Assembly (NCBI GenBank): GCA_029263175.1
Contig: JAJCXZ010000072.1
Coordinates: 1-38,912, forward strand
Direction of reading: 5' to 3'
Origin: Acidimicrobiales bacterium
GTDB taxonomy: Bacteria > Actinomycetota > Acidimicrobiia > Acidimicrobiales > Aldehydirespiratoraceae
DNA length: 38,912 bases
This document shows positions 15,261 through 38,912 of the stretch, piece after piece (the stretch's first letter is position 1; each line of letters begins with the position of its first letter). The notes beneath the pieces are model-generated. The model made no database searches. It saw only the letters and a program-made list of their open reading frames with translations, and was not told the origin of the DNA. Made by a program: the position numbers and the translations under genes.

Positions 15261-16016
15261 ATGGGCATCACGATCGACGAGCGGATTGAAATTGAGCGCG
15301 CGTTCCCCGACGATCGTCACCGCCGGCACCAGCGTGGAGCCCAGGAGAGGTTCTATGAAGGACTCGCTCAATCGGAGGCTCGTTTTCGAGAGCTGGTGAA
15401 CGGATTCAGCCCGGGCCAGCGAGTTCTCGAGCTGGGATGCGGAGTCGAGTCGCTCGCCTTCCGTCTCGCCGAGCGAGGTATCGAGGTCGTGGGGATCGAC
15501 ATCTCGGCGACCGCCGTGCAGGCCGCCGCTGAGCGGGCTCGTCAGCAAGAGCTCACTGGCCTGTCATTTGAGGTCATGAATGCCGAGTCGCTGGCATTTG
15601 CGGACGGTCAATTCGACGGAGTGGTGGGCACAGCAGTGCTCCACCATCTCGATGTCGCCAGTGCGTGTGCGGAGATGAGTCGGGTGCTTCGTCCCGGTGG
15701 TCGAGTCGTCTTGATCGAACCGCTCGGTCACAACCCGGTCATCAACGCCTACCGGCGTCGTACGCCGGAGTCCCGGACGCGTTTCGAACACCCGTTGCGG
15801 TGGGAGGACTACGGACTGGCGCGCCGGTACTTCGAGGAAGTCCAGGTCGAAACCTTCCATCTTCTTGCGATCCTCACCAGCCCGATCGCTGACCGCTGGT
15901 GGGGGCGACGGCTCCATGCCGCGCTTGCATCCGCCGATCGATGGATCCTTGGCCTTTCCGAGCGTCTCCGCTGGCAAGGCTGGATCGCGGTGTCGGAGTT
16001 CCGCCGCCCCCGATGA
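15261..16016 (+). CDS. SAM-dependent class I methyltransferase, first gene of the polysaccharide cluster
   Basis: This 251-residue enzyme has a Rossmann-type SAM domain at about residues 45-160. Motif I is VLELGCGVES near 54, the acidic SAM-ribose residue is in VVGIDIS near 77, and VVGTAVLHHL and LRPGGRVVLIEP are the later motifs, as in UbiE/Methyltransf_11 proteins. The substrate is not evident. Its stop overlaps the start of the sugar transferase by 4 bp (ATGA), so it belongs to the polysaccharide operon and may methylate a sugar or its lipid carrier. The ATG start at 15261 has only a weak upstream purine stretch. Confidence 0.88.
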   Translation: MGITIDERIEIERAFPDDRHRRHQRGAQERFYEGLAQSEARFRELVNGFSPGQRVLELGCGVESLAFRLAERGIEVVGIDISATAVQAAAERARQQELTGLSFEVMNAESLAFADGQFDGVVGTAVLHHLDVASACAEMSRVLRPGGRVVLIEPLGHNPVINAYRRRTPESRTRFEHPLRWEDYGLARRYFEEVQVETFHLLAILTSPIADRWWGRRLHAALASADRWILGLSERLRWQGWIAVSEFRRPR

Positions 16017-17332
16017 ACCGGTCATTCGCACTTGTGATGCCCGGCGGCATCTTCGGCCTCGTCGTGGGACTCGGTATGGTTCACGCCGAACTGGCGGATC
16101 CTTCGTACTCCTACGGCGGCATGCGTCTGTGGTGGGGTCTGGTGTACGCCTCGACCCTTTGGGTCGGTGCATACGCCTTTGGTCTCCCGGATGTGCCCCG
16201 CGTCTTCCGGCAGGCACTCGCGGCAGCGGTGGGCGCCGGTCTGTTCGGCTCACTCGGCCTCGCTGCCGCTCAGGCGGGATTGGGATCACAGGTCCTCCCT
16301 CGATTCGTGGTGATCGCCGGAGCCGGTCTCACGGTCCTCTGGCTGGTCGCAGTCTCCTCGCTATTGCGTCGGCAACGGAGTCGCGTCCAGTCAGGTGACC
16401 GGGTGCTTTTGGTCGCCGAGGCGGAAGGAGCCGCTCAGCTGGTCGCGGAGTTGGAAACCGCACCGCATCCACCTGTGCTCGCTGCGGTGGTCGATCCATC
16501 GGTCGCTCGCTCCCAGCCCGACGATCACGCTCCGCTGCTTGGAGCGGCGGCCGCGGTCGAGGCCACGGTGGTCGTGCTCGACCGTCAAGCGCAGATGGAC
16601 CAAACGATCGTCGATCAGGTCGCGATGCTCCACGAGCGCGGCGTGCGTGTCCGCACACTTTCCCTGTTCTATGAGCAGTGGCTTCTGCGTCTGCCGATCA
16701 GCGAACTCGAGCGGATCTCGCTGATGTTCGACATCGGTGAGATCCACCGAGCGCGCTACGGCCGACGGAAACGTATTCTCGACGTGCTCGTGGCTGCGGC
16801 GGGTCTTCCTGTTCTGGTCGTGGCGATCCCGTTCGTCTGGGTGGCCAACCGGATCGGCAACCGAGGCTCGCTGTTCTTTCGCCAAGACCGCGTCGGGAAG
16901 AACAGCGAGCCTTTCCAGATCCTGAAGTTTCGAACCATGTCCGGCGAGGACACCGGCGCCGGACCGTGGACGTCGGGCAACGACGCCCGAGTGACAGGAT
17001 TCGGTTCGTTGCTCAGACGATCTCACATCGATGAGCTGCCCCAGGTCATCAACATCCTGCGGGGCGAGCTCTCGATGGTCGGGCCCCGCCCGGAGCAGCC
17101 CCACTATGTCCGGGAGTTGGCGACGAAGCTGCCGTTCTACGAGCTACGTCACCTGGTGCAGCCGGGGCTGACAGGGTGGGCGCAGATTCACCAGGGATAC
17201 GCGGCCTCCGAGAGCGACGCCCTGGAGAAGCTTCAGTACGAGTTCTGGTATCTCCGTCATCAGTCGCTCGCGATGGACCTGCGAATCATGGTCCGAACCA
17301 TTCGCAGCGTTGTTCGGGGGCGGGGCCGATGA
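16013..17332 (+). CDS. Polyprenyl-phosphate sugar-1-phosphate transferase (WcaJ/WbaP-like)
   Basis: This 439-residue membrane enzyme is the likely initiating transferase. It would move a sugar-1-phosphate from a nucleotide sugar to undecaprenyl phosphate at the inner face of the membrane. Four hydrophobic helices occupy residues 1-120, a soluble nucleotide-binding-like domain about 125-240, and the Bac_transf catalytic domain about 250-439. Key motifs are RRKRILDVLVAAAGLPVL, then FFRQDRVGKN, ILKFRTM, HIDELPQVINIL and GPRPEQP, and finally PGLTGWAQI. ATG 16013 overlaps the methyltransferase stop by 4 bp and is preferred to a longer in-frame start at 15899, which lies inside that gene. The substrate sugar cannot be predicted. 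Confidence 0.93.
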   Translation: MNRSFALVMPGGIFGLVVGLGMVHAELADPSYSYGGMRLWWGLVYASTLWVGAYAFGLPDVPRVFRQALAAAVGAGLFGSLGLAAAQAGLGSQVLPRFVVIAGAGLTVLWLVAVSSLLRRQRSRVQSGDRVLLVAEAEGAAQLVAELETAPHPPVLAAVVDPSVARSQPDDHAPLLGAAAAVEATVVVLDRQAQMDQTIVDQVAMLHERGVRVRTLSLFYEQWLLRLPISELERISLMFDIGEIHRARYGRRKRILDVLVAAAGLPVLVVAIPFVWVANRIGNRGSLFFRQDRVGKNSEPFQILKFRTMSGEDTGAGPWTSGNDARVTGFGSLLRRSHIDELPQVINILRGELSMVGPRPEQPHYVRELATKLPFYELRHLVQPGLTGWAQIHQGYAASESDALEKLQYEFWYLRHQSLAMDLRIMVRTIRSVVRGRGR

Positions 17333-18150
17333 GCCAGTCGACCGTCCTCGTCGTGGCCTACGGGATCGATGCACTCGACCTCTCGTGGGTGCCGTCCGAC
17401 ACCGAGGTCATCATCGTTCACAACGACGATCGCCTCGATCTCGGTGCATGCGAACACCCGAGTTCGCGCCATCTCTGGCCCGGCCGCAACGTCGGCTTCG
17501 GCGCGGGAATGAATCTCGCTCTCGCCGAAGTGACCAGTGAGCGGGTACTCCTCTGCAATCCGGATACCCGGCTCGACCCGTGTCATTTCGAAGCGCTCGA
17601 CAGCGCGGACGGTTCGACGATCGTGGCCATCCCGCTTCTCGAGGAGGACGGCGCACCGAACGCGGTCGTCAGTCCCTACTGGACCGTCCTCGCGTTTGTC
17701 GCAACCGCCTACCGGCTGGGCCGGTTCGCGCCGCGAGGTGGTCGCCTTCGGTCGATAGTCGCACGACTGCTCGGCCGCTACGGAGCCGGTCATGTCGAAG
17801 CCTTGGGCCAGACTTCAGGCCGCTGGTCGCTCCAGGAGCGCTGGGTTTCGGGGGCGGTGCTCTCGATGCCAACCGATGCTCTTCGTGTCGTCGGGGGATT
17901 CGACGAGTCGTACTTCCTCTACTTCGAGGACGCCGATCTTCAGCAGCGCCTCGCCGTGGCTCGTCCCGACATCGAGATCGAGTTGAAGGACATCCGCCCG
18001 GCGGTGCACCTGGTCGGTGGATCCGACAATGGTTCGCGGTCCGATGTGGTTGCCAGGCACCGTCGTGCCAGCGCGCGTACGTACGCCTCGCGCCAAACCG
18101 GCGCTGGCTGGCGCGTCGCCGAGACTGCCCTGGCAGTGGGGTCACGATGA
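17329..18150 (+). CDS. Family 2 glycosyltransferase
   Basis: This 273-residue GT-A-fold enzyme resembles rhamnosyltransferase-type GT2 proteins. VGFGAGMNLAL near residue 58 and LLCNPDTRLDP near 75 (the DxD equivalent) form the nucleotide-sugar site. WVSGAVLSM and GGFDESYFLYFEDADLQQRL near 170-210 form the acceptor and catalytic region. It lacks the long C-terminal membrane part of processive enzymes, so it should add a single residue to the lipid-linked glycan. ATG 17329 overlaps the previous stop by 4 bp; a longer frame begins at 17176 inside the sugar transferase and is rejected. Donor and acceptor are unknown. Confidence 0.88.
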   Translation: MSQSTVLVVAYGIDALDLSWVPSDTEVIIVHNDDRLDLGACEHPSSRHLWPGRNVGFGAGMNLALAEVTSERVLLCNPDTRLDPCHFEALDSADGSTIVAIPLLEEDGAPNAVVSPYWTVLAFVATAYRLGRFAPRGGRLRSIVARLLGRYGAGHVEALGQTSGRWSLQERWVSGAVLSMPTDALRVVGGFDESYFLYFEDADLQQRLAVARPDIEIELKDIRPAVHLVGGSDNGSRSDVVARHRRASARTYASRQTGAGWRVAETALAVGSR

Positions 18151-19253
18151 GCGCGCTCAAAGCTGTCGTGCTGCGCCCTGGCCGTCCCGCGTTCGGAGAG
18201 ATTCGCCGCACGCAGACGTGGCTGCGACTGTTTCGTGCTGCCGGCGGGGAGGCCACCGACTTGGGATTCCTCGATCGGAAACTGCTCGGCCCGACGATCT
18301 CCGACGCCCGTCGGCTCCTCCGTCGAGAGATGGTGCCGGAGGCCGCGGTGTGGCGTGGGGGAGTGGTGGCCGAGCGCCTTCGGGCCCTTGAGCCTGATGT
18401 CGTTGTGCTCCAGACAAGCCGGGCGTATCGACCAGAGGTCGTCGACGGCCCGTGGGTGACGATCCTTGACCTCGTCGATCGCTTGAGTCTGAGCTATCGA
18501 CAACGGGCGCGGCTTGCGCCGTCGCGGGCGAAGGGCGAACTGCTTCGTCGGCTCGCTGAGGCGCACGAGGGTTTTGAGGCTGGGGCTCGAGACCGCTGCT
18601 CACAGGTGGTCGCCGCCGGTTGGGGCGACTCCGCCCATCTGGGGGCAACGTGGGTCCCGAATCTTGTCGATCCATCACAACGACCTGCCGGCTCGACGGC
18701 CAAGCCCTACGACGCCGTGTTTTTCGGTTCGCTTGGCTACGCCCCAAATGTTGAGGCCCTTCGCTGGCTGGCTCAGAGTGACACGGGTGATCTCGATCTC
18801 CGGATCCTCATCGCCGGCCATGCACCCACCGACGAGGTGCGTCATCTCTGCCGCTCCCGGGGCTGGGAACTCGTCGAGGACTATCCGTCCAACGACTGGC
18901 TGGTGGAGCAGGCCACGATCTCTCTCGCTCCGCTGCGTTCCACCGCCGGCATCCAGAACAAGGTGCTCGAAGCGGCAGCCCTCGGTCTTCCTCAGGTCGT
19001 GGCGCCGGCCGCGCTCGCCGGGATGCGCGAAGGCTTCCCCGCAGTTGTGGCCGACACGCCCGACGAGTTCTTGGCGAGCGCCCGCCGACTGGTGGACGAC
19101 ACTCAGCATCGGCGACGCCTCGCCGACGACGCCTGGGCCTACGCCCATTCCAACTACACCGTTGATGGGTGGCTGCCGACCCTCTGGGAGCTCGTGAGTC
19201 CATCCGACGCGGTCGCCCCTGCGTGGGTGTCACAACCGAAGCTAGCGGGATGA
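18147..19253 (+). CDS. GT4-like glycosyltransferase
   Basis: This 368-residue GT-B-fold glycosyltransferase starts MSALKAVVLRPGRP. The N-terminal acceptor half has VVVLQTSRAYRP, and the C-terminal donor half begins near residue 185 (DAVFFGSLGYAPNVEALRWL). Its nucleotide-sugar site includes LAPLRSTAGIQNKVLEAAALGLPQVV near 275. The Gly-rich N-terminal loop of many GT4 enzymes is not obvious. The start overlaps the previous stop by 4 bp (ATGA 18147-18150), and the next gene overlaps it in the same way. Its role in the cluster is extension of the glycan. Confidence 0.85.
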   Translation: MSALKAVVLRPGRPAFGEIRRTQTWLRLFRAAGGEATDLGFLDRKLLGPTISDARRLLRREMVPEAAVWRGGVVAERLRALEPDVVVLQTSRAYRPEVVDGPWVTILDLVDRLSLSYRQRARLAPSRAKGELLRRLAEAHEGFEAGARDRCSQVVAAGWGDSAHLGATWVPNLVDPSQRPAGSTAKPYDAVFFGSLGYAPNVEALRWLAQSDTGDLDLRILIAGHAPTDEVRHLCRSRGWELVEDYPSNDWLVEQATISLAPLRSTAGIQNKVLEAAALGLPQVVAPAALAGMREGFPAVVADTPDEFLASARRLVDDTQHRRRLADDAWAYAHSNYTVDGWLPTLWELVSPSDAVAPAWVSQPKLAG

Positions 19254-19996
19254 CCTCGAACGTCGCGTTCATAGTGGCGCCGTTTCGATCTGGCAGCACT
19301 GCGGTTTGGAACGCGTGCCGGTCATACGAAGGTGTCACCGCGTTCTACGAACCGCTTCACGAGAGATTGGTGTCGCTGGTCGCCCAGCCGCGTGAGATCG
19401 ATCCGACCCATGAGGGTGTGGAGCTCGACTACTTCGCTGAGTACCGCGCGCTCGATCCGGCGTGGCTTGCGGATGCTCACCACGACGTGGCTCCTCACGC
19501 GCATGGTGCGATGGCGAGCTCGGCCGCTCGCTCGGCCCTGCGCGCCTACGTCGAAGGACTCGCCGCGGTTTCTGATGGGCCAGTCGTGCTTCAGTTCAAC
19601 CGTGCCTGCCTGGCGATTCCAACCCTCTCCACGCTGTGGCCCGCCGCTCCGATCCTCGCGGTGACCCGACCGGTCGAGGAACGCTTGCAGTCGGCCCGTG
19701 CTCAGGAGAGCCAGAGCTTTGATTGGTACGAGGCCTGCGGAATGCACTGGGTCGATCCGGGTCTACGGACGAAAGCGGCGGTTGCCGTCCCTCGAGTCGC
19801 GACGACCCTCGCCCGGCTCTCCCCGAACTGGTTTCTCGAGGCCGCGAGGAATGTGCAGGCACGGTTCGAGGATGATGCGGGCCGCTACGCCAGCGCAATC
19901 TTCGAGCACCGGACGTTGCGTGACGATGATCTGGTGGCCCGGGTCGGGTCCATCCTCCAGCTCGGTTCCCTCGGGCTCCCGGCGGTGAGGTCGTGA
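19250..19996 (+). CDS. Sulfotransferase-like protein
   Basis: This 248-residue soluble protein begins VAFIVAPFRSGSTAVWNA, which matches the 5'-phosphosulfate-binding loop (RSGST) of PAPS-dependent sulfotransferases near residues 13-18. ILAVTRPVEERLQSA near 142 resembles the 3'-phosphate-binding region (R...S). Such enzymes transfer sulfate from PAPS to hydroxyls of glycans or lipids. Its place between a glycosyltransferase and the flippase, with 4-bp overlaps on both sides, points to sulfation of the repeat unit before export. The rest of the sequence is divergent. The ATG start at 19250 is fixed by the overlap and by the family N-terminus. Confidence 0.78.
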   Translation: MTSNVAFIVAPFRSGSTAVWNACRSYEGVTAFYEPLHERLVSLVAQPREIDPTHEGVELDYFAEYRALDPAWLADAHHDVAPHAHGAMASSAARSALRAYVEGLAAVSDGPVVLQFNRACLAIPTLSTLWPAAPILAVTRPVEERLQSARAQESQSFDWYEACGMHWVDPGLRTKAAVAVPRVATTLARLSPNWFLEAARNVQARFEDDAGRYASAIFEHRTLRDDDLVARVGSILQLGSLGLPAVRS

Positions 19997-21219
19997 CCGC
20001 CGTGCTTTCCGCTCGTGTCAACGCCCTCCGAGGACACTTGTCATCCGGTTCGCTCCCCGTCCTTGCTGTTCGGGTAGTGGCCCAGGGCGCCGGACTGGTC
20101 GTTGTCCTGGCCGCGCTCGTGCTTCATGGGGCGGCGAACACCGGCATCTTTGTCCTGACCGTGACGATCTCCCAGATCGCCGCCATGCCCGTTGGTACCG
20201 GTTTCGGGCGGACGCTCACTCGCAACGTCTCACGATCAGACGAGCATGCGGCAACTGCGACGTGGACCTCGGGGGTTCTTGCCGCAGTCCCTCTCGTCGT
20301 GGTGTCGGTGGCTGCAGGTGCCGTCGTACTCGGTGACCTGCTGACGACGAGCGCGATGGTGGTATCGCTGGCCACATCGACTGCGGGGCTCTCGCTCCTA
20401 CAGATGAAATCTGCGGAGTATCGCGGGCAGGGGAAACCGGTGGCCACCTCGGTTCTGGAAGCGATCGTTCCGCAGGCCAGCGCGTTGATCGCCATCGGCT
20501 TCGGATTCTTCGGACCCGGTGCGTTCGTGGTCGCCAGGGGCGTCATTCTCCTGGTGTGCGCGCTCGTGATTGCCCGACCGCCTTCCTGGGATATCCGGCT
20601 GCGGTCGGATCTGGCGTCGTTGACATCCTCGTTCAACTCGGCGCTCATCGCCGGCACGCAGTTGCTGCTCGTTCGCTCGGATCTGCTCCTGATCGGGTGG
20701 CTCCTCGGTCCCGAGAAGGTGGCGTTCTACTCGATCATGCAACGCGTCGCAGAGACGGTGATATGGCCGACGGCGGCCCACCTCGTCGGAGCTGCGTCGA
20801 GATATGCAGCACCCGACCCGGGGCCGGCGCTTCATGACGTGGTTCTCTCCGATCGTCACGCCCTTCGGGCCGCGCAGCTCTTGTCCCTGGCCATCTCAGC
20901 CGTCGTGCTGTCAGCCGCGTTCGGTCTCAGCTTCGTGCGGCTCGACATGGGCATCGCCTTGGGTTTCCTTGTCGTCGGGAATCTCGTCGTGGTTCGCTAT
21001 GGGCCTGAGACCTCGTTGCTCATCATGCGCGACGAAGTGGCACGCGTTGCCCTCGTCGGCATGCTGGGGTTGACGATCAACCTCGTCGTTTCGTCGCTGT
21101 TGCTGCCAGTAGTGGGCGTGGGTGGCGCGGCTTTTGCCACACTCGCCTCAGTGGTGACCATGTACGTGTCGCTTCGCCAAATCGCTTTGCAGCGCATCGG
21201 CGTGACGGCGTCGGCCTAG
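19993..21219 (+). CDS. Wzx-like polysaccharide flippase
   Basis: This 408-residue polytopic protein of the MOP/oligosaccharide-flippase type should flip the lipid-linked repeat unit to the outer face of the membrane. About 12 hydrophobic segments span the whole length, for example GLVVVLAALVLHG near 37 and a C-terminal run near 350-395. The pattern NSALIAGTQLLLVRSDLLLIG followed by KVAFYSIMQRVAE near 215-250 is typical of the family. The GTG start overlaps the sulfotransferase stop by 4 bp. The gene is convergent with the next glycosyltransferase, and the two stop codons share the palindrome CTAG (21216-21219). No Wzy polymerase is evident in the cluster. Confidence 0.85.
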   Translation: MTAVLSARVNALRGHLSSGSLPVLAVRVVAQGAGLVVVLAALVLHGAANTGIFVLTVTISQIAAMPVGTGFGRTLTRNVSRSDEHAATATWTSGVLAAVPLVVVSVAAGAVVLGDLLTTSAMVVSLATSTAGLSLLQMKSAEYRGQGKPVATSVLEAIVPQASALIAIGFGFFGPGAFVVARGVILLVCALVIARPPSWDIRLRSDLASLTSSFNSALIAGTQLLLVRSDLLLIGWLLGPEKVAFYSIMQRVAETVIWPTAAHLVGAASRYAAPDPGPALHDVVLSDRHALRAAQLLSLAISAVVLSAAFGLSFVRLDMGIALGFLVVGNLVVVRYGPETSLLIMRDEVARVALVGMLGLTINLVVSSLLLPVVGVGGAAFATLASVVTMYVSLRQIALQRIGVTASA

Positions 21220-22409
21220 CCGATCAGGCGATCGAGTTCTGCGGCGTAGCGATCGCTCGCGAGGTCCCAGTTCCAGCTGGTCCGAGCATGTTGGCGGATG
21301 GCTGATCGATCAGTGCCGGGGAGGTCGGACAACACTCTGTGCAGCCCAGCAGCCAGTGCTTCCGGTGAGCGGTCGGCCAGCGCGCCGGTGATTCCCGGGG
21401 TCACGGTCTCGCGGTAGCCGCCTTCGTTCACGGCTACCACCGGAGTGCCGCAGGCCATTGCCTCGAGAGGGGTGAGACCGAGGGGTTCGACTCGCGCCGT
21501 TGCTATGACGGCAGATGCGCGCTGATAGCGCGAGACGAGGGTTGATTCGTCGATGTCGGCCTCGAGCACCAGCCGGACGCCGTGTTCCTTGGCCAGTGTG
21601 CGCAGCTTGTCGGCCTGGTTCGGTGCCGCTCGGTTGTGGATGATGCGCAACGCAGGTCGATCGGGCAACGGCAGTTGCCCCACCGCGGCAATGGCGAGGT
21701 CATGCCCCTTGCTGTCGTCCAGAGCACCCACGGCGACGATCTCGTGTTCGCGGTGGTCATCGGGCGGAAGCGTGAACTGGTCCTGGTCGGCACCCAACGG
21801 CAATACGGTGGAATCTCGCCCGTAGCCGCGCCAGATCGTCTCGCGGGAGTAGTGGCTGTTGCAGACGATCGCGGTGGCTGCTCTCGTCGCCGAGAGGTCC
21901 TGTCGGCGGGCCCAGCCCTCCAACAGGTCGAGAGGGAGTTCCGCGGTGCGACGAAGCGGCCCTCGTTCAGTTGGGTGACGGATTGCGTATTCGAAGCTGC
22001 GACGGCGGGGCTCTTGGGCCATGTAGAGGCTGGGGCCCGACAGATGACGAAGCAGGCTCGGGGCCTGGAGAAACCGTTGGTGGTGCACGACGGTTGCCGA
22101 TGCGGCGAGTTGCTCGATCTGACGGGCGATCTGGCGCTCCGCCTTGATGATGGCGGGGACGGCCCGCGTCCAGCGGCGAATACGACCTTCGCCACCGACC
22201 GGCGCTCGGTGACGATGAACCTCAGCAACTACGTCGGCCAGCGGAGCCAGGCGAGCACTCGCAAACGGGTCCTGGTCGGTGGGCTCCACCTCGTAGAGCA
22301 CGTACCGGTACCGCTGATTGGTCCGCCGGGTCAGCTCGAACATCGCGCGATGAGCACCGCCCGGTGGGAGGTGATGGTACAGAGCCACGACGGGGCGGGA
22401 GTCGGTCAT
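21216..22409 (-). CDS. GT4 glycosyltransferase (GT-B fold)
   Basis: This 397-residue GT4 glycosyltransferase starts MTDSRPVVALYHHLPPGGAHRAMFEL, where PPGGAHRA is the N-terminal nucleotide/acceptor loop. The C-terminal half begins near residue 220 with IVAVGALDDSKGHDLAIAA. The catalytic EX7E-type region is ARVEPLGLTPLEAMACGTPVVA near 310-330. It is transcribed towards the flippase and away from uvrC. The 119-bp gap to uvrC must hold divergent promoters. It is probably the last glycosyltransferase of the polysaccharide locus, but it is under separate control. Donor sugar unknown. Confidence 0.9.
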   Translation of the reverse strand: MTDSRPVVALYHHLPPGGAHRAMFELTRRTNQRYRYVLYEVEPTDQDPFASARLAPLADVVAEVHRHRAPVGGEGRIRRWTRAVPAIIKAERQIARQIEQLAASATVVHHQRFLQAPSLLRHLSGPSLYMAQEPRRRSFEYAIRHPTERGPLRRTAELPLDLLEGWARRQDLSATRAATAIVCNSHYSRETIWRGYGRDSTVLPLGADQDQFTLPPDDHREHEIVAVGALDDSKGHDLAIAAVGQLPLPDRPALRIIHNRAAPNQADKLRTLAKEHGVRLVLEADIDESTLVSRYQRASAVIATARVEPLGLTPLEAMACGTPVVAVNEGGYRETVTPGITGALADRSPEALAAGLHRVLSDLPGTDRSAIRQHARTSWNWDLASDRYAAELDRLIG

Positions 22410-31869: not shown

Positions 31870-33372
31870 GTGCGTCGCCTGTGTCCCCATGCAGGGCTCT
31901 TGGCCCTGCTCACCCTTCTCGCCTTCCTGGCCGCCGCGTGCGCGGGCGAACGGCCCACGCTGCGAAGCGAAGGAGCGGAGCGAGAGGTCACATCGGCGGC
32001 CTCCGATGCCGACGCCGACGAATCTGAAGAGACCGACGATTCCGTCGAGGCGGATGAGGTCGAAGACATCACCCTGCGTCTCGGAGTCGGTGCCGACTGG
32101 ACCGGCGACCCCGCCGATGCAGGGCCGGCATCGTTGTCACTTCGTGTTGTTGCCGATCTGTTGCACCAGGGCCTGACCGACCTGGGCGCGGACGGTTCGA
32201 TCGGCCCGGGACTCGCCGACCGCTGGTTCGTCACCGAAGATCGACTGACATGGACCTTCGTGCTGCCCTCAGGCCTTACTGACGGGCTCGGTCTTGCGCT
32301 GACTGCTCGAGATGTAAAGCTCTCGCTCGAAGGTGTTGCGGCGAGGGGCCCGGTCGACCAGGCCGCCACCAGCCTTCAGCCGATCCGCGGGTGGACGGAC
32401 TTCATGAACGGGGAATCCGGCGGAGTCGCCGGAATTTCGGCGCCCGATGTGACCACTTTGGTGATCAGGCTCGACGAACCCTTCGAGATGCTGCCTGACG
32501 TGCTGGCGGCTCCCGCCTTCGGCATCACCGGCCTCACCGAGGACAACGAGATCCGAACCACCGGCGCCTATCGTTACGACGGTGACATGACGCTGGTCGC
32601 CGTGGCCGATGATGCGGTCGTGACCGAGATCACATTGGTTCGCTCCGAGTCGGGTCCCGGCGATCTGCTGGCCAACGATTTGGTCGACTGGGTCGTTCTC
32701 TCTCCCGGCGAAGCGAGCGACGGCTTGCCCGGCGACGTAATCCGTCAACCGTTGGATCTCCGCGTTGCGATGGTGGTTCGTCTCGGCGACGAGACGGCTC
32801 GTCGAGCCTTGCTGGGCTCAATAGTGGCAGCCGAGCTATCCACGGGCATTCCGTCTCTGAACCCGCTTCCGAATCAGCTGACCGGCGCGGCCGCGTCCGA
32901 CGACCTGCCCGAGTCGATCGTGGTCGACGTCCCCGCGGGGACGCTTTCGACGATTGGCCGAGCGATTGAGATTCAGCTTCTGAGTCTCGGAGTCGATGTC
33001 GAACTCCGAGAGTCCGAGGCCGACGAGTTCGCCGCCCGTGTGGCATCGGGCGAGGCCGTGTTCTACCCGCTCGCCATCGCGGGAGGATCTGGATCCGCCG
33101 ACGCGCTGCTCCGTGTGGCGGGCGGGGTCGATGATGTGACCGGTGCCGAGTCTGATCAGCTTCAGGAGCTGATCGAGGGGGTGGCGGCCGAGTCTGACCC
33201 GGCGCGCCGGCGGATCCTCATCGCCAGCCTCGAAGACGAAATGCGTGACCTGGGCTTGATGCTGCTCATCGGACAGTTCGAGGTGCGAGTGGGAATCGGG
33301 CCCGACTTCGACGGGCTCCGGCATCGCAGCGACGGCACGCTCGATCTCTCTCGTCTTGGTGGTGGATCGTAG
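31870..33372 (+). CDS. Extracellular solute-binding lipoprotein (SBP_bac_5-like)
   Basis: This 500-residue protein begins with a lipoprotein signal peptide (hydrophobic core LLALLTLLAFL, Cys24 after LAAA). A strongly acidic linker rich in Asp, Glu and Ser follows (about 45-70). The remainder resembles the peptide-binding SBP_bac_5 family of ABC importers: RVVADLLHQGLTDLGADGSIGPGLADRWFV near 93-122, TWTFVLPSGLTDGLGLALTARDVKLSL near 130-155, and a LDEPFEML-type continuation. The GTG at 31870 has GGAGG only 3 nt upstream, so a slightly later start is possible. No permease or ATPase gene is nearby, so the substrate is unknown and a non-transport role is possible. Confidence 0.78.
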   Translation: MRRLCPHAGLLALLTLLAFLAAACAGERPTLRSEGAEREVTSAASDADADESEETDDSVEADEVEDITLRLGVGADWTGDPADAGPASLSLRVVADLLHQGLTDLGADGSIGPGLADRWFVTEDRLTWTFVLPSGLTDGLGLALTARDVKLSLEGVAARGPVDQAATSLQPIRGWTDFMNGESGGVAGISAPDVTTLVIRLDEPFEMLPDVLAAPAFGITGLTEDNEIRTTGAYRYDGDMTLVAVADDAVVTEITLVRSESGPGDLLANDLVDWVVLSPGEASDGLPGDVIRQPLDLRVAMVVRLGDETARRALLGSIVAAELSTGIPSLNPLPNQLTGAAASDDLPESIVVDVPAGTLSTIGRAIEIQLLSLGVDVELRESEADEFAARVASGEAVFYPLAIAGGSGSADALLRVAGGVDDVTGAESDQLQELIEGVAAESDPARRRILIASLEDEMRDLGLMLLIGQFEVRVGIGPDFDGLRHRSDGTLDLSRLGGGS

Positions 33373-33375
33373 ATC

Positions 33376-35004
33376 TCAACCGCGATCGACGATGTCGATC
33401 GGAATGATCACGCCGGGCACTTCGAGTCTTGTCTCGACGATCAGCCAGCATGAGTCGAGACAGAAGCTCACCGGCGCGAGCGCGCCCACTGCGATTGTTC
33501 GTCGACGATCGAAGTTCGGGATCTGCAGGATGGCATCGACCGTGCCGTCACGCTGGATTCCAGTACTGAACCCGGCCGTGGCGATGCAGTCGTCGGGCGT
33601 GCCGTCGGGGGACTCGCAGAATCGGATTCGGGTGGACACAAACGGGTCGTCCACTGCCGCGTTTGCAAAGAGGCCTCGACCCACTATCCGAATCTCATCG
33701 CCGGCCTCGAACGGCCCGGATCCGTCGATTCCGACTTCCGGAACGATGGCCGCGGCGTTGCTGGTTACGAACGACACCGGCACCGAGACGAACTCGCCGG
33801 CGACAGCAGCGGTGAGCGAGCAGGGGGTCAGCGCGCAGTCGATGATCGACTCGCCCGCCAGACGATCGTGGCGATCGTCGACGAATCGTGGGATCGAGAT
33901 CAGGGTCGCTTCGCTCGTCGAAGCTGTTGCCAGCGAGATGCAGGTCGGAACGTCGGTGGCACACAGCCACAGGGAGGCGACCGAGGCCCCGGCATTGCTG
34001 AGTCGGACTTCGATCACGTCGCGCTCGCTGAGTCCAACGCTGGGTCGAACGCTGAGCCCGACTCCGGCCGCAGCGCCGTCGCTGTCGGTCAAGAATTCGA
34101 GGCTGACCGGGTCGATGCGTTGGCTGTCCTCAGTGATGAAGCGGAGCTCGCACGGCCCATCGATCGCGCAGTCGTGTGGCCCCCGCGCCGTGATCATGTG
34201 GCGGCGAGGGAAGGTGCGGTAGACGGCCGCTGAACCGATGGTCGTTACCTGCGACGGGGCGATGGTCGTTCCCGCGGTACACGAGTCGTTCAAGTCAAGG
34301 ATGCACTGACGGGCAACGAGCACTCGGTCTGTCGGGATGGTGATGTTGAGCTCGTCGACCTCTTCCAGCTCGCCCTCGTCGATGGTCGACTTGCGAGCGC
34401 TCTGGAGCGGGGCAGAGTTGTCGAAGTCGATCTCGACGTTCAACTCCTCGATCAGGTTGCCGAACGCGCGGATTCGCAGCTCGCAGGGCGAAATTGTCAC
34501 GCAATCTTGGATGTTGCCCTGCCAGTCGACGAACCGTCGCATGAGCGTGACCGGTACAGAACTCGACTCCGCGCCGACCGTGACAGATCCCATTTCCACG
34601 TCGGTACAGGCAATCGCTCGGCCCCGGCGGCAGAGAGCCAAGCTGGGCTGATCCTGGGTGAGGTAGGGGCTGTCGGCTGTGACAGTGACGACCACGCCAT
34701 CGCTCAGGCCAATTGACGGTTCCACGGATGCCCCCCGAGCCACGAGCGAGCTCCGGGGAGGGGCGGGCAGGTCGGGGTCGAAGGTCGTGGTCGGCGGGGA
34801 AGTCGTCGATGTTGTCGACGTGGCGGGAGCCGCTTCCGGTTGAGCAACACCGTCGCCGTCGAGGAGCTGCCAGCCGAGCGCCGCAATCAGCAGCAGGCCG
34901 CCGATACCTGCGAGTGAGCGGAGCGGGCGGCGATTCGGGCCCTTCGGCCGGCGGGAGCGCTCGGGAGCGTCGTCCTCGATCGGCAGCTCCGACAAGGGGT
35001 CCAT
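33376..35004 (-). CDS. Membrane-anchored secreted protein with four neocarzinostatin-like Cys repeats
   Basis: This 542-residue protein is of unrecognised function. Residues 1-30 are cytoplasmic and basic, a membrane helix is at about 31-48 (LAGIGGLLLIAALGW), and a Thr/Ser/Pro linker runs about 54-83. Four repeats of about 100 residues fill the rest. All 16 cysteines fall into four sets of two pairs: 125/133 and 168/174; 234/242 and 279/285; 348/355 and 390/395; 463/473 and 515/519. Repeats 1 and 3 have PSIGLSDG/PSVGLSER then LC...C and DC...PC, a pattern like the neocarzinostatin fold (two disulfides, GLSDG start). No chromophore genes are nearby. The ATG at 35004 is chosen because the N-terminal region before it looks non-coding; a longer frame to 35085 exists. 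It converges with the solute-binding protein, 3 bp apart. Confidence 0.8.
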   Translation of the reverse strand: MDPLSELPIEDDAPERSRRPKGPNRRPLRSLAGIGGLLLIAALGWQLLDGDGVAQPEAAPATSTTSTTSPPTTTFDPDLPAPPRSSLVARGASVEPSIGLSDGVVVTVTADSPYLTQDQPSLALCRRGRAIACTDVEMGSVTVGAESSSVPVTLMRRFVDWQGNIQDCVTISPCELRIRAFGNLIEELNVEIDFDNSAPLQSARKSTIDEGELEEVDELNITIPTDRVLVARQCILDLNDSCTAGTTIAPSQVTTIGSAAVYRTFPRRHMITARGPHDCAIDGPCELRFITEDSQRIDPVSLEFLTDSDGAAAGVGLSVRPSVGLSERDVIEVRLSNAGASVASLWLCATDVPTCISLATASTSEATLISIPRFVDDRHDRLAGESIIDCALTPCSLTAAVAGEFVSVPVSFVTSNAAAIVPEVGIDGSGPFEAGDEIRIVGRGLFANAAVDDPFVSTRIRFCESPDGTPDDCIATAGFSTGIQRDGTVDAILQIPNFDRRRTIAVGALAPVSFCLDSCWLIVETRLEVPGVIIPIDIVDRG

Positions 35005-35105: not shown

Positions 35106-35192
35106 GTCGGAGTGGCGGAATTGGCAGACGCGCTAGCTTGAGGGGCTAGTGCCCGAAAGGGCGTGGGGGTTCAAGTCCCCCCTCCGACACCA
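35106..35192 (+). tRNA. tRNA-Leu(GAG), CCA encoded
   Basis: The acceptor stem GTCGGAG (35106-35112) pairs with CTCCGAC (35182-35188). The anticodon stem CTAGC/GCTAG encloses the loop TTGAGGG with anticodon GAG, which reads CUC and CUU leucine codons. A long variable arm (GCCC-GAAA-GGGC) marks it as a class II tRNA. The T-arm has GTTCAAG between GGGG and CCCC. ACCA follows the acceptor stem, so CCA is encoded. Its 3' half (from 35171) overlaps the end of the serine recombinase gene on the other strand. Confidence 0.97.
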
Positions 35193-36826
35193 ACCGTGAG
35201 TACATGAGGTGCCCCGGCACCGGCTTCGATCATCTTCGTTTCTGGGTGATAGGTGAGGTTCACGCCGAGTTCGTCGTAGACGGCTCGACGGTCGGTCGGG
35301 CTGGCTTTGGCTAGTACGTCGACGATGTCACGGAGTTGCGTGACGAGTTCGCGGATCTCGGTTTTGGTCATGCTTTGGTTCTTGGGCCGAACGTTGAGCT
35401 GGCGTTCCAGCTTCTTGCGTTCTCGCTCAACTTCGGAGATCCAGGTACCGACCACCGCGATGTCTGGTTGTGTCTCGAGAAGCTCTCGGTACTTCTTGAG
35501 TTTCGAGTCACAATCCTTGATCTGTCGGCGGATGGCGAGCGCCTGCTCTGGCTGATCGTCAAGCTCTGCATTGCTTGCGTTCGAAAGAGCTTGGCACGTG
35601 GCCTCGATGTGTTCGTCGTCGAACAGCTGACCGATCCATTGGTCGAGACCCGGCAGGACCGCGTTCTCGCGCACGTACACCGTTTTCGGATGTTTGTCTT
35701 CGGCGACGGCATACTCGCTCGGGAACTTGCATCGGTAGTAGGCCTTGTTGTTGTTCCACGAGGCCTGCATCCGTCTTCCGCAGATTCCACAGCGCATGAG
35801 TCCGGAAAGCATGTATGGGTGGCGGGTCTTCGTCTTGCGGACGGCGGCCCGTTGTCCCGATTGGAAGATGTCCCTAGCTGCTTCGAACTGTTCTGGCGTG
35901 ACGAGTGGCTCGTGGGTCTGTTCCTGGGACCAAACCCAATCGGCCTCGTCGTTCCATCGCATCTTGCTCTCGTGGCCGAGGGCGACGTCATCGACATCGA
36001 TTAGCACTTCATCTCGGCGCTGCTTGTTCCAGATCTCGCGGCCGGTGTATCTCGCGTTCTGAAGTATGACCTTCACGGCGTGCTTGGACCATGCTCCGCC
36101 GCTACTCGCTCGATGCCGGTTTCGGTTTGGATCGTGAGCGGAGGGGGACAGGATCCCTTCGCCGGTCAGAGTTTCGGCGATGGCATAGAGGCCCTTGCCA
36201 GCGATGAATTCGTCGAAGATCCGTCCCACATTGGCCGAAACCGTCGGGTCGGGTACGAGGACGTGGAGTCGCTGTCCGATTGCTGCCTTGCTGGGGTTTG
36301 GGTGGGGTCCAGCGTCGCCGAGCGTGTAGCCGTATGGCGGGCGTCCGCCAAGGAATCGGCCTTCGACAGCGGCTTGGGCCGCCATGGCAGAACGGACGCG
36401 TGTCTTGATCCGATTTCGTTCGCCCTTGCTCATACCGCCGTAGAGGCTCATCACCAGCTCGTGAGCATCCGAGCCAGGGTCGACCCGTCCTCCGACTTCG
36501 GGGACCCACAGTTCGACTCCGTAGTGGACGAACACGGGAAATGTAAGGCCGAACTGGTTTCCGTAGAACGCTCGTTGCGGTTCTCCGATGACTACCGCGT
36601 CGAAGCCGCGACGAGGATCGGCGAAGGTCTCAAGAAGCCGTGCTGCTTCAGGTCGTCGCTTCCATGGGATTGAGCGGGACTGTCCGATGTCGAAGAACTC
36701 CGTGACTACCTCGCCGCTCGTTTGCTCAATGATTTGGCGGGATCTCGCAATCTGCCAGTTGCGCGAGGAGGCTGGATCCTGTTGGTCCTCGGTGCTGACA
36801 CGCCCGTAGAAAGCGAACTTCGTCAT
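35171..36826 (-). CDS. Large serine recombinase (integrase)
   Basis: This 551-residue site-specific recombinase has the resolvase catalytic domain at residues about 3-150, with nucleophile Ser11 in FYGRVSTEDQ and catalytic region residues such as the Arg in GEPQRAF. The Recombinase domain is at about 165-290 (LGGRPPYGY...). A zinc ribbon near 345-370 has CGICGRRM and YYRCKF; only three Cys are seen and a His may be the fourth ligand. A coiled coil near 425-490 is rich in Lys and Glu. Its last six codons and stop (GVGGGT) lie in the tRNA-Leu 3' half, so integration at the tRNA is likely. TAGCAT is a possible -10, 8 nt before the ATG. It probably moves the element to its right. Confidence 0.93.
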   Translation of the reverse strand: MTKFAFYGRVSTEDQQDPASSRNWQIARSRQIIEQTSGEVVTEFFDIGQSRSIPWKRRPEAARLLETFADPRRGFDAVVIGEPQRAFYGNQFGLTFPVFVHYGVELWVPEVGGRVDPGSDAHELVMSLYGGMSKGERNRIKTRVRSAMAAQAAVEGRFLGGRPPYGYTLGDAGPHPNPSKAAIGQRLHVLVPDPTVSANVGRIFDEFIAGKGLYAIAETLTGEGILSPSAHDPNRNRHRASSGGAWSKHAVKVILQNARYTGREIWNKQRRDEVLIDVDDVALGHESKMRWNDEADWVWSQEQTHEPLVTPEQFEAARDIFQSGQRAAVRKTKTRHPYMLSGLMRCGICGRRMQASWNNNKAYYRCKFPSEYAVAEDKHPKTVYVRENAVLPGLDQWIGQLFDDEHIEATCQALSNASNAELDDQPEQALAIRRQIKDCDSKLKKYRELLETQPDIAVVGTWISEVERERKKLERQLNVRPKNQSMTKTEIRELVTQLRDIVDVLAKASPTDRRAVYDELGVNLTYHPETKMIEAGAGAPHVLTVGVGGGT

Positions 36827-36846
36827 GACTCACGATGCTAGGACAT

Positions 36847-36905
36847 CACCGTGACATGAATCTGGGACGCCGCCGGATTCACGTTCTGTCGATGTCACGT
36901 TGGTG
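36847..36905. repeat. Nested inverted repeats upstream of the recombinase gene
   Basis: GTGACAT (36851-36857) and ATGTCAC (36892-36898) are perfect complements, flanked by CACC (36847) and GGTG (36902). Within them, TGAATC (36857-36862) pairs with GATTCA (36876-36881). They lie 21-79 bp before the recombinase ATG, over its probable promoter, and may form an operator or recombinase binding site. The rest of the gap (36906-37032) holds no recognisable gene. Confidence 0.5.
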
Positions 36906-37032
36906 AGGAGCTTGAGGAGCGCTCTTGACAGGCGGGGGGTCAGCGGCGGCGGAGCCTGTCCAAGCTGCACCAGCCGAACCCGCGAGGAGGCAGGGGCCAT
37001 TGGCTCGGCTTGGGACCCGCGAGTCGACGCCC

Positions 37033-38226
37033 TCATCCGATGACTGCCGATCGCTGGAGGACGGCGTCGAGCCAGGCAGCCCAGTCGGTGGATGCGCCCG
37101 GGGTGTAGCACCCTGTCGCTGGCGCCGCGGTTGGCGGGATCGGCGTGCTTCGAATGATTCCGAGTAGGACGGGCTGAGGACATACGGACTGGCCGTAGGC
37201 CCGGATGCCGAGGTGAAGGTGTGGGCCGGTGGTGTTCCCTGCACCCGGGGTTCCGGGTTGCCCACCGCTGATGCCGATGGCGTGGCCGGCGGTGACTGTG
37301 TCGCCGGAGGCGACCGCAATCGCTGAGAGGTGGCAGTAGGTGTAGCGGGCTCCGTCGATTCCCGACACGATGACGGTGTTGCCGCATCGTCCTGCTGCGC
37401 CAGGCTCGTAGACGCCGGCGTTGCCGATGGCGACTGAGATGGTGCCATCGACCATCGCGAACACCGGTGTTCCGATCGGCAGTGGTAGATCGATTGCCGC
37501 ATACTCGTGGTGGCTTCGGGTGGCGCTGGCGACGCTCGCGTATTCCGATGGTGCGGGGTAGGCGTAGCCGGCGACGACCGCTCCGACTGAGGAGAGCGGG
37601 CCGGTGTAGCGGGCGGCCCATTCGAGGACGAGTTGTACGTAGGCGGCGGAGCGGTTGTAGGCGAAGATCGCCGCTTCGATATCCGTGACCGTCCCGCTGG
37701 GGCACAAGTGAGCGACCACGGCTGGGATCGCGTCGTACACGTTGTTTGGGTCGCGAACACCGTCGCCGTTTCCGTCTTGGCCAAAGATGGCCCATGACGA
37801 CGGGATGAACTGAAACGGCCCGACGGCGCGGTCCCAGACGGTGTCGCCGTCGTAGTGACCATCGTCGGTGTCACGGATCGACGCGGTGCCGTTCGTGCCG
37901 TTCAGCGGGATTCCGATGATCGATGGAGCCACCGTGCCGTCGATGTCGATTGATGATCCGGCATATCGGCCGTGGTTCGATTCGACCTTGCCGATTCCGG
38001 CGATGACCTGCCAGGGCAGACCTGGACAGGCCGCCGCCTGAGCTGCGTAGAGGTTCAGCAGCAGCGGTGGAATGTCGGTGATCGCGTCGTCTGAGGGATC
38101 GAACAGAGCATGGCCGGCGCTGGCTGTCCCTGATGCGCTGCCGGCGACGAGCGTCACGAGCCCGAAGAGCGTGATCAACGGGGAAGCAAGCACGAAGACG
38201 GCGGCGACGGTTGCCTTGACCATCAT
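37033..38226 (-). CDS. Bifunctional SLT lytic transglycosylase / M23 peptidase
   Basis: This 397-residue secreted or membrane-anchored peptidoglycan hydrolase has an N-terminal hydrophobic segment at residues 3-30 and an SLT-like lysozyme domain at about 55-200. The catalytic Glu is in VIAGIGKVESNHGRY, AVGPFQFIPSSWAIF is near 140, and a calcium-like DGNGDGVRD loop is near 155. A Tyr/Pro-rich linker precedes an M23 (LytM) domain at about 240-350, with a zinc-site HHEYAAID and GPHLHLGI near 335. Two-domain enzymes of this type open the cell wall in conjugation systems and phages. Its ATG at 38226 overlaps the upstream lipoprotein stop by 4 bp (ATGA), and a second ATG at 38223 is possible. Conjugation is inferred from context. 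Confidence 0.88.
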   Translation of the reverse strand: MMVKATVAAVFVLASPLITLFGLVTLVAGSASGTASAGHALFDPSDDAITDIPPLLLNLYAAQAAACPGLPWQVIAGIGKVESNHGRYAGSSIDIDGTVAPSIIGIPLNGTNGTASIRDTDDGHYDGDTVWDRAVGPFQFIPSSWAIFGQDGNGDGVRDPNNVYDAIPAVVAHLCPSGTVTDIEAAIFAYNRSAAYVQLVLEWAARYTGPLSSVGAVVAGYAYPAPSEYASVASATRSHHEYAAIDLPLPIGTPVFAMVDGTISVAIGNAGVYEPGAAGRCGNTVIVSGIDGARYTYCHLSAIAVASGDTVTAGHAIGISGGQPGTPGAGNTTGPHLHLGIRAYGQSVCPQPVLLGIIRSTPIPPTAAPATGCYTPGASTDWAAWLDAVLQRSAVIG

Positions 38227-38864
38227 CGGGCGAACTCCAGTGCCCCGACCACCCAGCCGCTGACCGTGGGAACCAGCAACACCTCCACTACGAACACGGA
38301 GAACGCTCCAGTTCGCGGGTCCGACCGCTCGACGGTGACAACCACGTGAGTCTCGAAGTCGCTCTCGAAGAGCTCAGCGCTCACGATGGCCGAGCTGGTT
38401 GAGGTACTCGCCTCGACTGGCGCCACCGAGCGGCCGGTGGCGGCGAGGCCGGGCGTGATCCAATCGGACGCAGCCTCGGCCCACGGCTCACCCTCGGGAG
38501 ACTCAATCGCCCAAACGGCGACGACGTAGGCCGCGACCGATTCTGGTTGCGTCGGGTCCTCAGGCGCGACGGGCAACGGCGACAGGCGGGATTCGAAGTC
38601 CGCCGAGTGGAAGAGCTGGGCGGGCTCTGGGTCTGGAATTACGTGGGCCATCGTTGTCGCGAGTGATTCCACCGAGCGGGCCAGCGTGTCTGGCGGGTCG
38701 ACGAAGAGTCCGGCCGCGGAGCCTGGCGTTTCGGCGACAGGAGCCAGGGCGTCAGTTGGGGAAGGGGACGAAACCGCTGTCTCCAGGACAGGTTGCGTTG
38801 GCGTCGTTGGAGCACAGCTGATGCCGATGAGGGTGAGTGCGCCGAGAGCGACAGTCGTTTTCAT
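38223..38864 (-). CDS. Small lipoprotein of the element
   Basis: This 213-residue protein begins MKTTVALGALTLIGISCAP, a lipoprotein signal peptide with Cys17. A Ser/Pro/Thr-rich linker runs about 20-60. The rest may be an NTF2-like or VirB8/TcpC-like mixed alpha/beta domain: VAAYVVAVWAIESPEGEPWAEAASDWITPGLA near 110-140 and VFVVEVLLVPTVSGWVVGALEF at the end. No family is certain. Its stop overlaps the start of the hydrolase gene, so the two are co-transcribed. It is probably part of the element's cell-envelope machinery. AGGT lies 7 nt upstream of the ATG. Confidence 0.6.
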   Translation of the reverse strand: MKTTVALGALTLIGISCAPTTPTQPVLETAVSSPSPTDALAPVAETPGSAAGLFVDPPDTLARSVESLATTMAHVIPDPEPAQLFHSADFESRLSPLPVAPEDPTQPESVAAYVVAVWAIESPEGEPWAEAASDWITPGLAATGRSVAPVEASTSTSSAIVSAELFESDFETHVVVTVERSDPRTGAFSVFVVEVLLVPTVSGWVVGALEFAR

Positions 38865-38871
38865 GCACTAC

Positions 38872-38890
38872 CTGTGGCTCTTGTCCACAG
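38872..38890. repeat. Short inverted repeat with a DnaA-box-like sequence
   Basis: CTGTGG (38872-38877) and CCACAG (38885-38890) pair across a 7-nt loop. The right half includes TTGTCCACA (38881-38889), identical to the GC-rich actinobacterial DnaA box. It lies just before the lipoprotein gene. One box alone does not show an origin. Confidence 0.4.
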
Positions 38891-38912
38891 AGGATTGGGA
38901 CACTCCGCGAAA

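Follow-up and report, generated by a model that had tools for sequence, protein, structure and literature searches.

Four tandem neocarzinostatin-like repeats behind a putative membrane anchor in a protein of an Acidimicrobiales bacterium

The window considered here, the whole 38,912-nucleotide stretch of DNA from an Acidimicrobiales bacterium that was analysed, contains a gene for a protein, P0001, in which a single membrane segment at the N-terminus is followed by a linker rich in Thr, Ser and Pro and by four repeats of ~105 residues each that resemble neocarzinostatin (NCS). The gene, its parts and its immediate neighbours are set out in Table 1. Its likely start is the ATG at 35004, from which the product begins MDPLSELPIED; this start is preferred over a longer reading from 35085 because the orthologous ORF L005 begins with the same residues, and a weak trace of them is also left in the genome G002 (E 0.038). 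An earlier note, made from the letters of the window, had placed an anchored four-domain protein at 33376-34740. That interval takes in the repeats but not the anchor, the gene itself being 33376-35004, and the anchor is borne out in that a hydrophobic N-terminal segment can be read from the sequence.

Table 1. Positions in the window of the NCS-fold protein gene, the parts that it encodes, and its neighbours
Feature	Position	Strand	Remarks
NCS-fold protein gene (P0001)	33376..35004	-	542 aa plus stop; start set by conservation with L005
Short N-terminus, residues 1-29	34918..35004	-	Arg/Lys-rich directly ahead of the membrane segment; presumably cytoplasmic
Membrane segment, residues 30-48	34861..34917	-	hydropathy window 1.8 at residue 30
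Thr/Ser/Pro-rich linker, residues 49-88	34741..34860	-	predicted disordered
Repeat 1, residues 91-197, NCS fold (predicted)	34414..34734	-	model pLDDT 92.8; VIA-align; PF00960 14.6 bits; profile 98.8%
Repeat 2, residues 204-306, NCS-like	34087..34395	-	profile 97.5%; 24.3 bits (HMM built without P0001 and its orthologues)
Repeat 3, residues 314-415, NCS fold (predicted)	33760..34065	-	VIA-align Z 9.4-11.2 on model residues 313-415; profile 98.3%
Repeat 4, residues 421-542, diverged NCS-like	33379..33744	-	profile 93.9%; 7.9 bits by HMM
SBP_bac_5 solute-binding protein (SBP) gene	31870..33372	+	lipobox read from sequence; convergent neighbour of the NCS gene
tRNA-Leu	35106..35192	+	upstream of the NCS gene

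A large serine recombinase is encoded at 35171-36826 on the minus strand (PHROG integrase 1.6e-67); its gene ends inside the 3' end of the tRNA-Leu, with a gene for an M23/SLT-domain protein (37033-38226) next after it, and 35106-38912 is probably an element integrated at this tRNA; in another genome (G017, locus L045) a related integrase adjoins the same tRNA-Leu. That the element also brought in the NCS gene was considered and we think not, the gene being across the tRNA from the element and its site being shared by the orthologue in the genome G001. GC content does not decide the element's part in the matter (0.651 for the NCS gene, 0.596 for the integrase gene and 0.656 for the M23 gene), and searches of phages, plasmids and viral contigs gave no relatives. 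Farther off, at 15899-22409, are polysaccharide genes for a sugar transferase, two glycosyltransferases and a polysaccharide synthesis/flippase-like protein.

Arg/Lys residues stand before residues 30-48 of P0001 and an acidic Thr/Ser/Pro-rich stretch follows them, an arrangement suggestive of a type II signal anchor, N-in/C-out, that would leave the repeats outside. In a model of the full-length protein pLDDT is below 50 across residues 1-88. The 16 cysteines of P0001 fall into four C-C/C-C blocks with spacings of 8/35/6, 8/37/6, 7/35/5 and 10/42/4 for repeats 1 to 4, so that there are two Cys pairs per block with spacing (7-10/35-42/4-6) near the 10/41/5 of NCS itself; four such blocks appeared in 0 of 200,000 shuffles of the ectodomain, a test for which the permitted spacings were fixed after seeing P0001. 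Four Cys are counted in each repeat, and they may well form two disulfide pairs there. The C...C / DC...PC pattern that had been read throughout the protein is present as such in repeats 1-3, repeat 4 having FC...SC and aligning loosely, and of the GLSDG-type beginnings attributed to repeats 1 and 3 that of repeat 1 is exact and that of repeat 3 is GLSER. Conservation of the Cys spacing in homologues, on which the earlier note had let its proposal depend, holds up well: exactly four Cys occur in 196 of the 202 domains collected below.

To which family do the repeats belong? The curated cut-off is 25 bits for PF00960 and, as an equivalog, 86 bits for NF040680. With P0001 alone, PF00960 scores below its cut-off at E 0.034; it gives 23.1 bits for L006 and no match at E<=1 for L005, while phmmer with P0001 reaches NCS itself at E 0.021. 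Such single-protein matches are too weak to decide the family. A profile (A3) built on the repeats, 12 in all, that P0001 and its two orthologues contain is more telling, since the ten best of its 12 matches among PDB sequences are NCS-family carriers (C-1027, NCS and variants, kedarcidin, macromomycin), with C-1027 at 7.5e-5, NCS at 1.7e-4 and the weakest of the carriers at 0.065. Six array ORFs from the matched genomes of the order have PF00960 in three or four stretches each, at E 3.2e-22 to 4.4e-36. An HMM iterated from the window's repeats over the fetched loci gathered 123 domains in 24 ORFs, of which 112, P0001 and its two orthologues being left aside, were made into an HMM and a profile. 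Repeats 1-4 score 36.3, 24.3, 34.0 and 7.9 bits with this HMM, the best of 500 shuffles reaching 6.3 bits and the best of 500 shuffles that kept the Cys in place 11.7 bits; repeats 1-3 thus beat the stricter control and repeat 4, at less than 11.7 bits, fails it. Since the collection of the 112 domains began with the window's repeats, it is the Pfam result, and not the HMM, that links them to NCS independently. In profile-profile comparison all four repeats match the 112-domain profile (Table 1), in profile alignments their identity to the array domains of other families being 10-21%, and the profile search against the NCS family that had been suggested as a check has come out in favour.

Models point the same way for two of the repeats. 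For repeat 1 (AlphaFold2 given the 12 repeat rows) the sole Foldseek match below 0.001 is to 4jw3 (8.0e-5, TM 0.61), chain A of which is named neocarzinostatin in the PDB sequence listing. The ten best VIA-align matches are all from the NCS family, with Z 9.5-11.4 and rmsd 2.5-3.1 over 94-102 residues, the next match having Z 8.1 and kedarcidin then following at 7.5. The full-length model has a mean pLDDT of 62.6; the eight best VIA-align matches to repeat 3 within it are again of the NCS family, and those over the other repeats are mostly general Ig-like, none above Z 8.3 and many with large rmsd. The models of repeats 1 and 3 can be superposed on the structures of NCS, macromomycin and C-1027, and the NCS beta-sandwich is accordingly the predicted fold for these two. 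For all four repeats the fold is supported by profile comparison, with repeat 4 the weakest. The central claim of the earlier note, four tandem NCS-like domains, is sustained on this combined footing; the structural comparison that it proposed gave a fit for repeats 1 and 3, a poor model for repeat 4, and otherwise resemblances of a general Ig-like kind.

Such arrays are no oddity of one genome. PF00960 is over its cut-off in 76 of 344 sampled genomes of the Acidimicrobiales; of 396 genomes sampled from the phylum 13 have it, 7 of these belonging to the order. When the order was searched with the orthologue alignment, longer proteins turned up in 11 of 347 genomes, one of them the window's own. 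We collected 65 distinct ORFs with 202 domains, comprising the best-matching loci, the window, its two orthologues and L077, a sample with a bias to strong and long arrays. Among the 54 uncut ORFs 33 have 2-9 domains (the 11 cut ORFs are outside this count), and in 53 of the 54 a hydrophobic segment lies ahead of the first domain, it being borne in mind that stop-to-stop ORFs may include sequence ahead of real starts. Counting repeats in homologues, as had been advised, thus finds multi-domain forms in plenty, and the note had overestimated the rarity of the four-domain form, tandem NCS arrays being common in the order. Arrays such as those of L061, L065-L067 and L070 share with P0001 the same domain, export to judge by sequence, and four Cys per domain, in 2-9 copies, and differ from it in that many have what look by eye like cleavable signals, not anchors, and some have Calx-beta or esterase domains. 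Ten ORFs near five other array loci have no function in common. In one genome (G041:C46, L066 2392-9358) six ORFs with 2-3 NCS domains each are clustered on the two strands of a single contig, beside isocitrate dehydrogenase. With NF040680, L061, L065 and L066 (3-9 domains) score 190-212 bits, over its cut-off, and automatic annotation might misname them 'enediyne antibiotic chromoprotein' on the domain alone.

Partner domains were read from 29 ORFs picked by hand, mostly for their extra sequence, so that what follows does not give frequencies. Over cut-off are PAF-acetylhydrolase-like hydrolases in L093, L128, L130 and L131, a BD-FAE esterase in L126, Calx-beta in L112 and L063 (below cut-off in L062), PBP_like_2 in L091, BNR/sortilin in L092 and DUF4214 in L100. 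L097, an NCS ORF by the iterated HMM for which Pfam lists only HtaA at E<=0.001, is not counted among them. By their annotation these partners are the company of an exported accessory domain. In the four PAF-acetylhydrolase/chlorophyllase-like hydrolases, two of them from genus g44, a single NCS domain is at the C-terminus, where it may serve an exported esterase as a module for binding a substrate or a surface. A further relative, L077, in the same genome as the window, has a single domain and a hydrophobic segment at each end; it scores 22.1-22.5 bits with PF00960, below cut-off, was found also by the iterated HMM and was missed by A3.

True orthologues are few. A scan of contigs with P0001 alone found no relatives, and the same scan with the alignment A1 found two orthologues, one in G001 of the same genus (57% identity; on the same contig as L078, Acidimicrobiaceae MAG BH8) and one in G012 of the same family (28%; L079, Acidimicrobiales MAG OFTM10), its 5' end cut by the contig edge. 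With the window's genome included, the NCS gene is in 3 of 51 genomes of the family at E<=1e-6. Repeats 1-4 of the window are nearest to the same-numbered repeats of L078 (64, 53, 58 and 73%, other pairings being at most 26%), and because each is nearest its counterpart the four-repeat array would be older than the split between the two; the correspondence to L079 is weaker, repeat 3 being ambiguous between its repeats 1 (28%) and 3 (26%). G002 has a piece of repeat 4 (E 9e-8) and the trace of the start 0.34 kb apart instead of 1.4 kb, which by sequence are the remnants of a decayed copy.

The SBP_bac_5 gene, which is downstream of tpi in the relatives examined, adjoins the NCS gene in the window, in G001 and in G012, and the decayed copy in G002, and is convergent with it where this is readable; it is itself found at E<=1e-20 in 16 of the 51 genomes of the family. 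No ABC permease is encoded among the window ORFs scanned. In the window and in G001 the NCS gene sits between the SBP gene and the tRNA-Leu, and in six loci without it (L045, L046, L047, L048, L050 and L053) tRNA-Leu comes ~90-290 bp after the SBP gene; in L049, L051 and L052 no tRNA was found after the SBP gene within the retrieved stretch. We infer that the NCS gene was gained in an ancestor of genera g1 and g10 and lost in G002. Its presence in 3 of 51 genomes, with remnants only in G002, implies that its role is dispensable. Where kept, the gene is under purifying selection that is most marked in repeat 4: comparison of the window with G001 gives a dN/dS of 0.29 for the whole gene (dS is 1.19, so this is rough), 0.54 for the N-terminus and 0.26, 0.35, 0.33 and 0.14 for repeats 1-4, the neighbouring SBP and tpi genes being at 0.19 and 0.08.

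What might such a protein do? P0001 belongs, as a diverged member, to a group of exported proteins with NCS folds in tandem that has been little described, and the reading to which we lean, with restrained confidence, is that it is an exported, disulfide-locked, Ig-like surface or wall-spanning stalk or binding array, held at the membrane, and not an enediyne carrier. Its one N-terminal segment would hold it in the cytoplasmic membrane with ~490 residues outside, the outer part being a flexible linker and then four Ig-like NCS-fold domains, each presumably locked by two disulfides. The four domains may act as a rigid surface or wall-spanning stalk and may bind an extracellular partner or polymer, chiefly through repeat 4, which is the distal one and under the strongest constraint; topology and role alike are proposed from features of the sequence. 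The protein would then be one member of an order-wide set of NCS-fold exported proteins having 1-9 domains, and a scaffold or ligand-binding use would fit the domain company in its relatives. The bacterial Ig-like surface repeats (TIG/IPT, choice-of-anchor) likewise have tandem Ig-like domains on an anchor, and some relatives have weak matches to TIG and NF058597 (choice-of-anchor Z), mostly below cut-off; the P0001 domains differ in being nearest the NCS family by profiles and models and in having two Cys pairs each. The available part of one report (PMC13251363) has CwpG of Actinoplanes missouriensis as a candidate cell-surface protein with one NCS-like domain (IPR002186), and by that description it is akin to P0001, with one such domain where P0001 has four. 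Tandem NCS domains were not found in the literature searched, which takes in few subscription journals.

The main rival to a stalk is a small-molecule scavenger or receptor, in which an NCS-like hydrophobic cleft would bind small hydrophobic ligands, whether for import with the neighbouring SBP or for self-protection. The NCS fold does bind small molecules, including, by their entry titles, engineered testosterone binders in the PDB, relatives join an NCS domain to PAF-acetylhydrolase- or esterase-like enzymes, and the loop lengths allow a cleft, Cys2-Cys3 being 35, 37, 35 and 42 in the four repeats versus 41 in NCS and C-1027. In NCS the stretch from an RR pair to Cys3 holds a hairpin beside the chromophore, and here the comparison is less kind to a scavenger: the stretch has 12 residues in repeats 1 and 2 versus 18 in NCS and C-1027, the measure not being comparable for repeats 3 and 4. 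The presence of an SBP gene next door is suggestive, but that gene occurs mostly without the NCS gene (the 16 versus 3 genomes above), and the convergent arrangement of the two genes does not make an operon. We regard a scavenger as improbable, though deserving of attention, and keep to the stalk or binding array.

Repeat 4, the putative tip of that array, could be thought an unrelated Ig-like domain behind three NCS domains. Its HMM score is weak, the full-length model is poor there (pLDDT blocks 27-61), so that its assignment depends on profiles, it is without the DC...PC motif, and there is no pairwise profile match between it and repeats 1-3. Against this, its four Cys have a spacing similar to that of the other repeats, and its match to the array profile, over 100 columns, compares with at most 2.4% in 50 column-shuffled controls. 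Of the four repeats it is the one most alike between the window and L078. A second hydrophobic window within it, residues 504-522, might conceivably be a membrane segment and not a strand, but is taken for buried strands because L073 is without such a window at that place. An unrelated origin for repeat 4 seems to us quite unlikely, and a diverged NCS domain is the assignment that we retain.

The fold itself raises the matter of enediynes. The apoproteins of neocarzinostatin, macromomycin, actinoxanthin, C-1027 and kedarcidin have folds like those predicted for repeats 1 and 3, and P0001 departs from them in its four tandem domains, its N-terminal membrane segment, scores below both curated cut-offs, the shorter RR-to-Cys3 stretch of repeats 1 and 2, and surroundings without a PKS domain among the 27 other window ORFs scanned (a part of the window's ORFs, including those for DNA repair (UvrA/B/C), polysaccharide synthesis and glycolysis). 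DUF1702 is linked to enediynes, and a search for it gave no match. In G001 and G012 a ketosynthase search at E<=1e-10 returned a FabF-sized match only. Two large PKS ORFs lie on other contigs of the window's genome, one (G000:C57, L133) a PKS-aminotransferase-NRPS hybrid and the other (G000:C26, L134) a KS-AT-KR-DH-ACP-TE PKS beside an NRPS with a luciferase-like monooxygenase domain. Enediyne clusters have a common cassette, E3/E4/E5/E/E10, according to the part of PMC5181780 available. As far as PKS were looked for, the earlier note's remark that enediyne genes are lacking is upheld. That the four domains of P0001 are a chromoprotein or immunity protein sequestering an enediyne, whether from another part of the genome or from neighbouring organisms, has on its side the NF040680 match at 9.2e-11 and the two PKS ORFs, yet that match is of 41.7 bits, those ORFs lie on other contigs and are of the layouts just given, and four repeats behind a membrane segment are not a secreted single domain, so that we give the idea very little credence: the evidence does not make P0001 an 'enediyne antibiotic chromoprotein', and its score speaks against the name.

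A wider proposition, offered tentatively and with more doubt than conviction, is that the NCS fold in the Acidimicrobiales is mainly a modular, disulfide-locked Ig-like export block, used in arrays of 2-9 and as an accessory to esterase-like and other exported proteins, of which the enediyne carriers are a single-domain offshoot co-opted to store a chromophore, with P0001 a type II-anchored instance of four domains that has its working tip in the distal repeat. Neocarzinostatin and related proteins are familiar for carrying drugs and as scaffolds in protein engineering. Tandem NCS modules in exported proteins across the order would provide the fold with another natural context and an evolutionary test, and may make many Cys-paired Ig-like domains available for binder design.
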